In this document: one piece after another, positions 25,261-60,004 of the stretch
Layout of the letters: each line of letters starts with the position of its first letter
Numbering within the stretch: position 1 is the stretch's first letter
Source: Propionibacteriaceae bacterium
GTDB taxonomy: Bacteria; Actinomycetota; Actinomycetes; Propionibacteriales; Propionibacteriaceae
Assembly (NCBI GenBank): GCA_027492545.1
Contig: JAPUEL010000034.1
Coordinates: forward strand, 1-64,000
DNA length: 64,000 nt
Direction of reading: 5' to 3'
Program-made: the position numbers and the translations under genes
The notes under the pieces: model-generated
Seen by the model: only the letters and a program-made list of their open reading frames with translations
Told to the model about the DNA's origin: nothing
The model's database searches: none

Positions 25261-26040
25261 ATGTCCAAGCGAATTGAGCTCAAGGATCTCGACATCTACT
25301 ACAGCAAGTTCCACGCCGTGAAGTCGGTCAGCATGACCATCGAGCCGCGGGCCGTCACCGCCTTCATCGGCTCCTCGGGGTGTGGCAAGTCCACCGTGCT
25401 GCGGTCGATCAACCGCATGCACGAGGTCATCGACGGCGCCTACGTCGACGGCCAGGTGCTTCTCGACGGCGTGGACCTCTACGACAAGGCCGTGGACCCG
25501 GTGCGGGTGCGCCGTCACATCGGCATGGTGTTCCAGCGCCCCAACCCTTTCCCCACCATGTCCATCCGCGAGAACATCCTCGCCGGCGTGCGGCTCAACA
25601 ACGCCCGGATGTCCAAGTCCGAGTCGGACGCGCTCGTCGAGCAGTCGCTGCGCGGCGCGAACCTGTGGAACGAGGTCAAGGACCGCCTGGACAAGCCCGG
25701 ATCGGGCCTCTCGGGCGGTCAGCAGCAGCGGCTCTGCATCGCGCGCGCCATCGCCGTGTCCCCGGACGTGCTGCTGATGGACGAGCCCTGCTCCGCCCTG
25801 GATCCCATCTCGACGCTGGCCATCGAGGACCTGATCAAGGAGCTCAAGGAGACCTACACCGTCGTCATCGTCACGCACAACATGCAGCAGGCGGCGCGCG
25901 TGTCGGACCAGACGGCGTTCTTCAACCTCAAGGCGCACGGTCAGCCCGGTGAGCTCATCGAGTACGGCCCCACCGAGAAGATCTTCCACAACCCGGACCA
26001 GAAGGCCACCGAGGACTACATCACCGGCCGCTTCGGCTGA
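25261..26040 (+). CDS. pstB: Phosphate ABC transporter ATPase PstB
   Basis: PstB (259 residues) powers phosphate import. Walker A is GSSGCGKST (37-45), the signature LSGGQQQR (150-157) follows, and Walker B is [25 protein letters not shown] supplies the switch histidine. The short ribosome site GGAAG precedes the ATG at 25261. It ends the operon, and a GC-rich hairpin follows at 26057-26091. No phoU is adjacent. Confidence 0.97.
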
Positions 26041-26127: not shown

Positions 26128-26409
26128 GAGACGCGGGGATGAGCAAGAGGGAGGGTGACTGCAGGGCGGCTGGGCGCAGTGATGCCCAACCTGACGATCA
26201 CCCCACTGGCGTCCCGCTTGAGCAGACCTTCGCCAGGGCCGCCCTGCCGGCGCCCTCCTGGGGCCGGCCGCGCCACAGACCAACCAGTGTGGGGAGACGT
26301 GAGACGAGGCCCGGGCGGCCTCAACTACCTGACCATGGCCAGTCGGGCAGCCGACGAGGCCACGGTGGACAAGGGCCGCACGGGCCTCGTGTCAGGGCTC
26401 CCCGCACCG
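26128..26409 (+). repeat. 282-base structured intergenic repeat, copy A
   Basis: This copy fills most of the 406-base gap between convergent genes pstB and the sucrase/ferredoxin-like gene. It aligns almost without gaps to 56992-57272, with identical blocks of 33 bases (26292-26324 with 57155-57187), 32 bases (26371-26402 with 57234-57265) and 21 bases (26205-26225 with 57068-57088). Two inverted repeats are kept in both copies: GCAGGGCGGC (26161-26170) with GCCGCCCTGC (26238-26247), and a 17-base pair of arms at 26304-26320 and 26374-26390 with one mismatch. A third imperfect hairpin pairs 26391-26405 with 26421-26435. No protein family is recognised; a structured RNA or a REP/MITE-like element is most likely. 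Confidence 0.8.
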
Positions 26410-26446: not shown

Positions 26447-27325
26447 TCAGAGCGGATCGACAGACCAGTAGGTCATCGGCTCCGCGGCCTTGCCGCAGCT
26501 GAGCGGGGCCTGGGTGCCGGTGTCGATGCGGGTCACGCGCACGTCCACGCGGGTCTGCCCGTGGCGGACCCGAACCGCGCCGTCGGCGTCCTCGCTGTCG
26601 AGGTCCTGTCCACGGGCCGCGCCGTACTGGGCCAGCGCCCACGCCTCCGCCGCCTGTCTCTCCGGGGGGAGGTGGCTGCGGCCGCGATCCTTCCGCGCCC
26701 CACCGGGCCAGAGCAGCCCCACGCCGGCGGCGCTGTGGGCGGCCGCGGCGTCCCCGGGATCGATGCGGCCGAGCACCTGCCCCGTCGGGAGCAGAAGGAC
26801 GGTGGGGGCGAACCTGTGGCCGCCCAGGTGCGAGCATTCCCAGAGGGCGTCCGGATCGCGCTGGTCCTCCAGGTCCTCCAGGATGGGACGGCCCTCCAGC
26901 GCACAGCACTGGTCCCGCTTGGCGTGGGTGCAGACCAGGAGCACGGGCTCGCCCGTGGCCGCCTCGGGGCGCGGGGTGCCGGCGTCGCGCCAGGCGGTCA
27001 GCCAGGGCAGGAGGGCCGGCGCGTCGTCCACCTCGAACCTGGCCACCCACCCGCCGGCGTCGAACCCTCCGGACACAAGGACGGTGAGAGGGTCGTCGCC
27101 GACGGTGTTGCGGGCCGCCCGGCGGATCAGGAGGAGCCGGCCGCCCATCTCCTCGATCAGGGACTCGAGCGCGCCGCCCACCACGGGATCCAGCGCGCGG
27201 GCGCTGGTGGCCGCCTTCGCGCCCCACGGGCCGGGCGTCTCCAGACACACCCAGAACGCGGCGCGCGCCGCGGTGCCCCACGCCGGCGGGCCGGCGGCTG
27301 ACCAGAGGACGGAACAGCGGGACAC
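26447..27325 (-). CDS. Sucrase/ferredoxin-like family protein
   Basis: A 292-residue protein of the sucrase/ferredoxin-like family (thioredoxin-like fold related to 2Fe-2S ferredoxins; enzymatic role unclear). The conserved cysteines and histidines occur in VCTHAKRDQCCALEGRP and WECSHLGGHRFAPTVLLLP. The start is a GTG at 27325 whose first base is the last base of the upstream TAG (TAGTG), so it is coupled to the GH3 gene. It is convergent with pstB across the repeat element. Family membership is clear, function is not. Confidence 0.83.
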   Translation of the reverse strand: MSRCSVLWSAAGPPAWGTAARAAFWVCLETPGPWGAKAATSARALDPVVGGALESLIEEMGGRLLLIRRAARNTVGDDPLTVLVSGGFDAGGWVARFEVDDAPALLPWLTAWRDAGTPRPEAATGEPVLLVCTHAKRDQCCALEGRPILEDLEDQRDPDALWECSHLGGHRFAPTVLLLPTGQVLGRIDPGDAAAAHSAAGVGLLWPGGARKDRGRSHLPPERQAAEAWALAQYGAARGQDLDSEDADGAVRVRHGQTRVDVRVTRIDTGTQAPLSCGKAAEPMTYWSVDPL

Positions 27326-51493: not shown

Positions 51494-51548
51494 CCCCACC
51501 CGGACGGCGCCTCGCCCATCGGCGCGCAGGGTATAGCCTTGTGCCCAC

Positions 51549-51636
51549 ACACAGGGGAGCGCCACTGGGGCGCTGAGAGTGCGGGCAGACCGCAGACCCT
51601 CAAACCTGATCCGGTTAGCACCGGCGTAGGGAGTGA
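51549..51636 (+). promoter_or_regulatory. TPP riboswitch (THI element)
   Basis: The thi-box hallmarks are in order: GGGGAGC on the 5' side, GCTGAGAGTGCGG at 51572-51584, then ACCCTCAAACCTGATCCGG and the closing GCGTAGGGAGT. These form the two thiamine-diphosphate-binding arms. It lies between disA and thiB, with TATAGC at 51532-51537 as a possible -10, and its expression platform must lie in the 50 bases before the thiB ATG. Thiamine diphosphate should repress the transporter. Confidence 0.95.
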
Positions 51637-51684
51637 GAATTCTCCTCGGCTGTCGCCGAGCCTCCGAAAGGAGAGATCAGCACC

Positions 51685-56515: not shown

Positions 56516-56856
56516 GCGACGGCCCGCCGGACCCTGGACTCGCGGCTGAGCGCACCGTCCTGGCCTGGCAACGCACCGCGCTGTCGATCGGCCTCGGCTC
56601 GTTGGTGTTCGCGCGCATCGAGTCCTCAGCAATGGGGGCATGGTCCTGGGCGCTCGCGGCCGCCGGCCTGGCGCTGGCCACCCTCATCGGGGTCTGGTCA
56701 CGACGGAGGTACGGCCACACGCACCGCACCCTCAGCGACGGGGGCAACCGCCTCGCCGACGGTCTCCTCCCTGCTGTGCTGGCCGCCACGGTGGCCTCCG
56801 CCGGCATCGTCGCCCTCGTCGTGTCGCTCCTGACCGCCCCCCTCCCCACCCCCTGA
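56512..56856 (+). CDS. DUF202 family membrane protein 2
   Basis: A 114-residue protein with the DUF202 signature in shorter form (LAAERTVLAWQRTALSIGLGSLVFARIES) and three hydrophobic helices. The ATG overlaps the end of the first DUF202 gene. Its last codons and stop lie in the first unit of a three-copy 24-base tandem repeat, so the C-terminus (TAPLPTP) may have been changed by repeat expansion. Confidence 0.88.
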   Translation: MSDGPPDPGLAAERTVLAWQRTALSIGLGSLVFARIESSAMGAWSWALAAAGLALATLIGVWSRRRYGHTHRTLSDGGNRLADGLLPAVLAATVASAGIVALVVSLLTAPLPTP

Positions 56857-56913
56857 CCGTCCTCCCTCCCCACCCCCTGACCGTCCTCCCTCCCCACCCC
56901 CTGACCGTCCTCC
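56842..56913 (+). repeat. Tandem repeat, 3 x 24 bases
   Basis: CTCCCCACCCCCTGACCGTCCTCC-type units repeat three times exactly, at 56842-56865, 56866-56889 and 56890-56913. The first unit contains the stop codon of the second DUF202 gene; the others extend into the gap. The strand is pyrimidine-only in long runs and may adopt unusual structure. Confidence 0.9.
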
Positions 56914-56991
56914 CCTCGCCGTCGAGGGGACCCCAGGACGCCTGCGCTGGTGCGCAGGCACCGTTGAGACCCGCAGGAAGGGAGCCGACGC

Positions 56992-57272
56992 GAGACGCAG
57001 GGTGTGCGCGAGGGTGGGGGACGGCAGGGCGGCTGCGCGCAGTGATGCCCAACCCGACGATCACCCAACTGGCGTCCCGCTTGAGCAGGCTCGAGCCAGG
57101 GCCGCCCTGCCGGCACGCGCCTGGAACCGACCACGCCACAGGCGAACTAGTGCAGGGAGACGTGAGACGAGGCCCGGGCGGCCTCAATGACCCGACCCGA
57201 GCCCGGCTCGCGGTCGAGAAGCAGACCGAGGTCAAGGGCCGCACGGGCCTCGTGTCAGGGCTCCCGGCACCG
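56992..57272 (+). repeat. 282-base structured intergenic repeat, copy B
   Basis: Second copy of the element at 26128-26409, same orientation, again between convergent genes (DUF202 and clpC). The paired arms are conserved: GCAGGGCGGC at 57024-57033 with GCCGCCCTGC at 57101-57110, and the 17-base arms at 57167-57183 and 57237-57253, with the single mismatch at the same place as in copy A. The sequence between the conserved blocks differs more. On the minus strand both copies can be read as related peptides (LLKRDAS, VIV, LGITA), but the frame is not a recognised protein. This copy is part of the 637-base gap 56857-57493. Confidence 0.8.
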
Positions 57273-57329
57273 GTGCGCGAGGCTTCGACACAGCAGCGGG
57301 CGCTCCGCGCCGCAGCTGGCTCACCCAGC

Positions 57330-57421
57330 GGGGCGGCCTCGGGTCAGGGCTCCCGGCACCAGGTGCCAGACCTGGGGCAAGTCCCCGAACCGGGCGCCAG
57401 CGGCTTCGACACAGCAGCGGG
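57330..57421 (+). repeat. Partial second copy of the element's right end, plus short direct repeats
   Basis: GTCAGGGCTCCCGGCACC occurs at 57254-57271 and again at 57343-57360, and GGCTTCGACACAGCAGCGGG at 57281-57300 and 57402-57421. The stretch thus holds a truncated duplicate of the right end of copy B and its flank. GGCACC-a-GGTGCC at 57355-57367 forms a small hairpin. Confidence 0.7.
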
Positions 57422-57493: not shown

Positions 57494-60004
57494 TCAGGCT
57501 GAGGCCGCGCCGTCGCCGTCGGCCGTCCGCGCGAGCTCGGGCAGGTCCGCCTTCGCCACGCCCGTGAACTTGAAGGGCAGCTCCGCGCCCTCCTCGCTCA
57601 CGTCCACCTGGACGATCTGGCCGGCCTGAAGCTCCCCGAAGAGAATCTTCTCGGCCAGAATGTCCTCCATGTCGCGCTGAATGGCGCGACGCAGCGGGCG
57701 GGCTCCCAGAACCGGATCGAAGCCGCGCTTTGCGATCAGCGTCTTGGCCGCGGGCGTGAGCTCGATGCCCATGTCCTTGTCCTTCAGGCGCATCTCGATC
57801 TGGGCCACCATCAGGTCCACGATCCGCTCGATATCGGCCTGCGTGAGCTGATGGAAGACGACAATCTCGTCGACGCGGTTCAGGAACTCCGGACGGAAAT
57901 GCTGCTTGAGCTCGTCCGAGACCTTCGCCTTCATCTTTTCGTAGCTCGACTCCTCGTCACCCGCGCGGGAGAATCCAAGATTGACGCTCTTGGAGATGTC
58001 TCGGGATCCCAGGTTGGTGGTCATCACGATGACGGTGTTCTTGAAGTCGACGACGCGACCCTGGGCGTCCGTGAGGCGCCCCTCGTCGAGGATCTGAAGC
58101 AGGGAGTTGAAGATGTCCGGATGTGCCTTCTCGATCTCGTCGAACAGGACCACCGAGAACGGCTTGCGCCGCACCTTCTCCGTGAGCTGTCCACCCTCTT
58201 CGTACCCGACGTATCCGGGCGGGGAACCGAACATCCGGGACGCGGTGTGCTTCTCGGAGTACTCGCTCATGTCCAAGGTGATGAGAGCGTCCTCGTCGCC
58301 GAAGAGGAACTCGGTGAGGGCCTTCGTCAGCTCCGTCTTTCCGACGCCCGAGGGCCCGGCGAAGATGAACGAGCCGCTGGGGCGCTTCGGGTCCTTGAGG
58401 CCGGCGCGGGTGCGACGGATGGACCGCGACAGTGCCTTGACCGCGTCCTTCTGGCCGATGTAGCGCTTCCCCAGCTCGTCCTCCATGCGGAGCAGCCGCT
58501 GCGACTCCTCCTCGGTGAGCTTGAACACCGGGATGCCGGTCGAGCCGGAGAGCACAACGGCGATCTCCTCCTCGCCGACCACGGCGGGGATGTCGGAATC
58601 TCCCTGCTTCCAGGCCTCCTCGCGCTCGGCGCGCTGCGCGCGGAGCTTCTGCTCCTCGTCGCGCAGGCGGGCCGCCCGCTCGAAGTCCTGGGCGTCGATG
58701 GCCGCGTCCTTCTCCAGCTTGTTCGCGGCGATGGCGTCGTCGAACTCGCGGAGGTCCGGCGGGGCCGTCATGCGCTGGATACGCAGGCGGGCGCCGGCCT
58801 CGTCGATCAGGTCGATGGCCTTGTCCGGCAGGAACCTGTCCTGGATGTAGCGGTCCGCCATGGTGGCCGCCGCCACGAGGGCCTCGTCGGTGATGGTGAT
58901 GCGGTGGTGGGCCTCGTAGCGGTCCCGGAGGCCCTTGAGGATGTCCACCGTCAGCGCCACCGACGGCTCCGCCACCTGAATGGGCTGGAAGCGACGCTCC
59001 AGCGCCGCGTCCTTCTCGATGTGCTTGCGGTACTCGTCCAGCGTGGTGGCGCCGATGGTCTGCAGCTCACCGCGGGCCAGCATGGGCTTGAGGATCGAGG
59101 CCGCGTCGATGGCACCTTCTGCCGCGCCGGCCCCCACGAGGGTGTGGATCTCGTCGATGAACAGCATGATGTCGCCGCGGGTCTTGATCTCCTTGAGGAC
59201 CTTCTTGAGGCGCTCCTCGAAGTCACCGCGGTACCGGGAACCGGCCACCAGGGCGCCCAGGTCAAGGGTGTAGATCTGCTTGTCCCTCAGCGTCTCGGGC
59301 ACGTCGCCTCGGACGATGGCCTGAGCCAGGCCCTCGACCACCGCGGTCTTGCCGACGCCTGGTTCGCCGATGAGCACCGGGTTGTTCTTGGTGCGTCGGC
59401 TCAGCACGGTCATGACCCGCTCGATCTCGTGGGCACGGCCGATGACCGGGTCCAGCGCGTTCTCGCGGGCGGCCTGCGTGAGGTTGCGGCCGAACTGGTC
59501 CAGCACCTGCGAGCTGCCCTTCTCGGGGCCGGTCTCCGGGGCGCCGGACATGGATGCTTCGCGGCCCTGGTAGCCGGTGATGAGCTGCAGCACCGTGTTG
59601 CGGACGCGGTTGAGGTCCGCGCCCAGCTTGATCAGCACCTGAGCCGCGACACCCTCGCCCTCGCGGATGAGCCCGAGCAGGATGTGCTCGGTGCCGATGT
59701 AGTTGTGATTCATCTGGAGCGCCTCGCGCAGCGAGAGCTCCAGCACCTTCTTGGCGCGGGGCGTGAACGGGATGTGACCCGTGGGCACCTGCTGGCCCTG
59801 ACCGATGATCTCCTCAACCTGTTCCCGCACCGCCTCGAGGGCGATACCGAGAGATTCGAGCGCCTTCGCGGCCACACCCTCACCCTCGTGGATGAGCCCG
59901 AGCAGGATGTGCTCGGTGCCGATGAAGTTGTGGTTGAGCAGCTTCGCCTCGTCCTGGGCCAGGACGATGACGCGGCGGGCGCGATCCGTGAACCGTTCGA
60001 ACAT
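57494..60004 (-). CDS. clpC: ATP-dependent protease ATPase subunit ClpC
   Basis: ClpC (836 residues) unfolds substrates for the ClpP peptidase. Two Clp N repeats (about 1-145, [31 protein letters not shown]) precede AAA domain 1 with Walker A GEPGVGKT (213-220, Lys219), a UVR-like coiled middle domain near [20 protein letters not shown], and AAA domain 2 with GPSGVGKTE (Lys556). TAAGCT at 60059-60054 is a likely -10, leaving a 43-base leader with GGAGGG before the ATG. It lies downstream of lsr2, as in mycobacteria. Confidence 0.97.

Follow-up and report, generated by a model that had tools for sequence, protein, structure and literature searches.

A structured, REP-tailed repeat in a few Tessaracoccus species that looks like an apparently uncharacterised kind of small mobile element

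The question raised by this locus is what kind of sequence occupies two separate gaps between convergent genes in the window (the whole stretch of DNA analysed, 64,000 nt). Copy 1 lies at 26128-26409 (+ strand, conserved core 26139-26408) and copy 2 at 56992-57272 (+ strand, conserved core 57003-57271), and the near end-to-end match described in the initial annotation was recovered with 83% identity (E 1.4e-77). Both inverted repeats described there were also found again, the 10-bp one with arms starting at 26161 and 26238 in copy 1 and at 57024 and 57101 in copy 2, and the 17-bp one with arms starting at 26304 and 26374 and at 57167 and 57237, respectively; the single stem mismatch common to both copies is G.A. 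The two gaps are indeed convergent. Copy 1 is placed between the genes for an ABC transporter ATP-binding protein (25261-26040, + strand) and a Suc_Fer-like (sucrase/ferredoxin-like) protein (26447-27325, - strand), and copy 2 between a small membrane protein gene, whose end is at 56856 (+ strand), and the gene for a ClpC-like ATPase (57494-60004, - strand). About three tandem copies of CCCCTGACCGTCCTCCCTCCCCAC were observed at and after the stop codon of the small membrane protein gene, upstream of copy 2 (56846-56915).

One forward frame is open across both window copies, which is unremarkable for 94 codons at 72% GC. The copies were judged not to be protein-coding because they differ in length by single bases and because change is concentrated at compensating stem positions, and no known protein domain or insertion sequence was matched in either strand. 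A search of Rfam 15 with gathering and relaxed thresholds returned no family over the element, only weak chance matches, just as no family had been recognised in the initial annotation. The sole Rfam match in the window is a TPP riboswitch (RF00059) at 51543-51649 (+ strand, 71.7 bits).

The element had been described as occurring twice, in one orientation. That count was correct but understated, since about 16 further copies are present in the same genome, and the common orientation of copies 1 and 2 does not extend to the family, whose copies lie on both strands. The draft genome, a Tessaracoccus of 3.13 Mb in 100 contigs, has about 18 copies in all (25 matches, 15 of them near full length, 74-87% identity), and further ones are probably missing from the draft because several of the known copies sit at contig ends. 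At one locus (L004, C70), the first 60 bases of the element occur twice in tandem upstream of a full copy, beside an assembly gap of Ns. The search of related genomes was also productive, with about 16 copies in T. lapidicaptus IPBSL-7 (G011) and about 49 in Tessaracoccus sp. MC1679 (G028), giving 79 distinct copies above 100 bits across the three carrier species. In the 36 other genomes among the 39 Tessaracoccus genomes compared, the element is absent or represented by remnants only. A covariance model of its second hairpin (hairpin II, described below) was run on genomes of the family (198) and of the order (392). Strong matches were confined to the three carriers and one fragmentary MAG; G007 gave a remnant, and G002 and G008 matched weakly. 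G002 is a complete genome, and its weak matches come from a sister family that has diverged and numbers about 11 structured copies. A similar hairpin is flanked there by CTCAACCAGCGGG and GGTTTCGACACG motifs and is partly arranged in direct-repeat arrays (loci L211, L217, L222, L226 and L230). No match was found in plasmid and phage records by blastn with the element, or in viral contigs with a pattern that matches both window copies. The family, with a module of roughly 270-280 nt, is confined to a few Tessaracoccus species.

The conserved part of the module is a fold of two hairpins. In copy 1, hairpin I occupies approximately 26147-26259 (+ strand), where GCAGGGCGGC at 26161-26170 pairs with GCCGCCCTGC at 26238-26247, with pairing extended on both sides and an inner stem Ia. 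Hairpin II lies at 26287-26407 in copy 1 (+ strand; model R1, 128 bits) and at 57150-57270 in copy 2 (+ strand; model R1, 124 bits), and it has a 31-pair consensus stem, whose core in copy 1 joins 26304-26320 with 26374-26390, and a variable apical loop. Covariation in this two-hairpin structure was assessed against 500 shuffles, with 76 copies aligned by sequence only. The structure had 93.1% of cells paired and double-sided changes at 23 pairs, none of the 500 shuffles reached the observed value on any of five measures, and pairing fell to 40-47% when partners were slid by 1 to 3 columns. Conservation was 92% in paired columns against 72% in unpaired ones, and the most variable stretch measured was the apical loop of hairpin II. 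Stem covariation is strong, compensatory change having kept both hairpins intact. Furthermore, of 34 informative stem columns, 26 had more G-U than A-C (p 0.003, in a test that is approximate since the sequences are related), and this excess is suggestive of an RNA read from the sense strand. That the element functions as RNA, and not as ssDNA, has somewhat less than an even chance.

Both the covariation and the G-U excess would suit a stationary cis- or trans-acting RNA (a bidirectional terminator, a 3'-UTR element or an sRNA) that selection preserves at gene ends, and so would the finding, based on rough gene calling, that most copies have their 3' side towards the 3' end of a neighbouring gene. 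By the same rough gene calling, copies with both neighbours determined occupy 15 convergent, 13 tandem and 1 divergent gap. A non-mobile RNA is nevertheless improbable, given the patchy species distribution, the about threefold difference in copy number between sister species, the occurrence of fragments and tandem ends, and the state of orthologous sites, which differ in presence and in orientation. The site of copy 2 is empty in both sisters, with 29 bp between the matching flanks in T. lapidicaptus and 112 bp in MC1679. The site of copy 1 is empty in T. lapidicaptus, where the stop codons of the two genes are only a few bases apart, and the corresponding gap in MC1679 is occupied by an element in the opposite orientation. 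A larger unit of about 3.0 kb, in which a DUF222-HNH gene lies between elements, is present at one T. lapidicaptus locus (L087); the MC1679 flanks there are 90 bp apart, and the empty site already holds a CCTCAGCCAACGGG motif resembling the terminal repeat of the unit. As sister species are without the element at orthologous sites, its mobility is near certain. Orthologous copies in the draft genome and MC1679 are often not each other's best match, so the age of the shared sites is uncertain. No clear target-site duplication was seen on examination of the copies, whose true termini are obscured by tandem ends. A homologous flank was also noted at two loci of these genomes (L137, C31 of the draft genome; L056, C9 of MC1679); at one of them it adjoins a DUF222-HNH gene, at the other an element standing alone.

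The module boundaries are sharp at the 3' side (...CTCCCnGCACC) and fuzzy at the 5' side. Beyond GCACC, the copies of T. lapidicaptus and MC1679 continue into a species-specific fixed tail that ends in a unit of the form TTCGAnAC, hairpin, CTCAnnnAnCG. The final 22-24 bp of the terminal hairpin unit recur up to about seven times in T. lapidicaptus, and a 47-bp terminal unit is repeated in MC1679, at least three times at some sites. Copy 2 in the window is followed by a REP-like terminal hairpin unit (57281-57333, + strand) consisting of GGCTTCGACAC, a GC hairpin and GGCTCACCCAGCGGGG, placed and ordered like the terminal units of those two species. Next come 26 bases that repeat part of the element's 3' end in tandem (57335-57360, + strand, corresponding to positions 246-271 of the nhmmer model) and a second, partial terminal unit (57402-57421, + strand, GGCTTCGACACAGCAGCGGG). 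A sharp 3' end, variable tandem tail units and a fuzzy 5' end would fit a retro-element, a SINE-like RNA of bacteria whose tandem 3' tail would result from copying by reverse transcription. This reading is weak and its probability is minimal, because no PF00078 reverse transcriptase was found in the three element-rich genomes (the draft genome, T. lapidicaptus and MC1679), 5' ends are kept in fragments as well as 3' ends, and head-to-head pairs would be unexpected.

Such pairs are a regular feature of the family. All ten close pairs of full elements (within 2.5 kb) are head-to-head with their 3' ends outward, which has a chance of about 1e-6 if orientation is random, and the spacers between paired copies hold DUF222-HNH or nothing recognisable, with no other gene. 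Inverted pairs, GC-rich hairpins, intergenic sites at gene 3' ends and solo copies are on record as the layout of REPINs (PMC3116915), and would be accounted for by a REPIN/REP-type element moved by RAYT or another IS200/IS605 (Y1) transposase. This explanation is largely refuted and must be considered very improbable. No PF01797 protein was found in any of the 39 Tessaracoccus genomes, with the positive control genomes matched, and a REP of the RAYT kind was ruled out by this absence of the Y1 transposase from the genus. The module is also far longer than a REP, for which a length of 20-40 bp is given (PMC3733652). In addition, REPIN doublets are predicted to be more conserved than singles (PMC3116915), which fails in MC1679, where mean identity is 72.6% for pair members (10 copies) against 76.9% for singles (36 copies). 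Given that identity is no higher for pair members, the unit of amplification in MC1679 may be something other than the inverted pair. The initial suggestion of a structured, REP- or MITE-like repeat that is not a protein is thus borne out by dispersed copies, empty orthologous sites, covariation and the lack of an Rfam family, but it does not hold for a RAYT-kind REP, and an RNA as the acting form is only tentative.

DUF222-HNH (13E12) genes are multicopy in Actinobacteria, include REP13E12 of the tubercle bacillus and have no assigned function. In T. lapidicaptus, every one of the 11 genes of one DUF222-HNH ("13E12") subfamily is flanked by the element on one or both sides, at a distance of 0.1-0.4 kb, mostly downstream and in the same orientation, and three of the 11 have full-length elements on both sides; two distant DUF222 genes of this species are without it. 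Chance cannot explain this association. In MC1679, two intact DUF222-HNH genes are flanked (L131 and L132) and a broken one lies inside a pair. Most copies in MC1679 and in the draft genome have no DUF222 gene nearby, and none is located within 1.5 kb of either window copy. Two DUF222 genes of the draft genome lie at the ends of contigs. In G014 and G023 the gene is present in several copies with no repeats at its flanks, the repeat there amounting essentially to the gene itself, so gene and element can exist apart. Because most copies are gene-less and the gene is repeated without the element in these two genomes, DUF222-HNH counts as no more than the best candidate partner, and that it drives the element is a possibility that falls short of being probable. 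The best PDB sequence matches of its HNH domain, over about 50 residues, are IscB, which gives a weak hint and no claim of membership. An AlphaFold model of the protein (pLDDT 50) was too poor for use, and searches with PADLOC and NCBIfam produced one marginal PADLOC match and nothing useful.

The data show that the family is multicopy, polymorphic in its insertions, conserved in fold and paired head-to-head, that its terminal units occur in tandem, and that it is physically linked to DUF222-HNH. The best explanation, which we consider modestly probable, is a structured, REP-tailed, non-autonomous mobile element with DUF222-HNH as its likely partner. The nuclease would recognise the folded module, the terminal hairpin unit or both, and would cut or nick sites at gene 3' ends with a likeness to the terminal unit, and the element would then spread through repair templated by another copy. 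Gene-less solo copies, including both in the window, would be non-autonomous copies or remnants of inverted pairs. Against this explanation stand the mostly gene-less copies, the gene without element in G014 and G023, the lack of a clear target-site duplication and the fuzzy 5' boundary. The predominance of solo copies in MC1679 and the draft genome, and the multiplication of DUF222-HNH by itself in G014 and G023, would also suit a MITE-like element of some other transposase (DDE or unrecognised), located elsewhere or lost. DUF222-HNH would then be a passenger, or an independent inserter into the same permissive repeat tracts, and the T. lapidicaptus flanks are rich in repeat units that could attract both. 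This alternative is less probable than the preferred reading; it is opposed by the content of the spacers between paired copies, by the 11 of 11 flanked subfamily genes and by the missing target-site duplication. A further proposal, which is rather doubtful, is that the DUF222-HNH protein may be the nuclease of a new transposition or homing system directed by a ribonucleoprotein or an ssDNA hairpin. The element would then serve it as RNA or as recognition partner, and its terminal and target sites would be the REP-like units in tandem.

Bacterial mobile repeats of small size can usually be assigned to a transposase that is already known. The present family looks like an apparently uncharacterised kind of small mobile element, setting together an elaborate covarying fold, unusual tandem-repeated ends and a tie to DUF222-HNH in one species, and it provides a concrete system in an environmental bacterium where the function of DUF222-HNH could be tested. 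In gene content it resembles REP13E12 (13E12 family) of Mycobacterium tuberculosis, regions which "lack defined biological function" (PMC13061034); common to both is a multicopy DUF222 and HNH gene (PF02720, PF01844) without assigned function. The protein with PF02720 and HNH occurs in the T. lapidicaptus and MC1679 units and not with the window copies, and a flanking structured inverted element is not in the papers found, M. tuberculosis having been compared by papers and not by loci. IscB and TnpB (OMEGA) systems are alike in having a nuclease gene with a GC-rich, structured element next to its 3' side, usually in the gene's own orientation; they differ in that here only HNH is matched, with no RuvC domain in a Pfam scan, no guide-like segment identified, and gene-less copies. 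MITEs are similar in their short, dispersed, structured, gene-less copies beside gene-bearing units and in polymorphic insertion. Unlike MITEs, the element has unusual tandem ends, lacks a clear target-site duplication and has no parent transposase that is known. Inverted halves occur in its pairs, with the true termini obscured by the tandem ends, and only the DUF222-HNH unit of T. lapidicaptus and MC1679, which is not a known transposase, shares its ends. In contrast to REPINs or BIMEs with RAYT (TnpA_REP), the module is about 270 nt long and covarying, its linked gene is DUF222-HNH, its tandem terminal units are variable and the Y1/RAYT enzyme is absent from the genus that carries it. It nevertheless shares with them intergenic, multicopy, palindromic sequences, inverted doublets and solo copies, and its terminal hairpin units resemble REPs.
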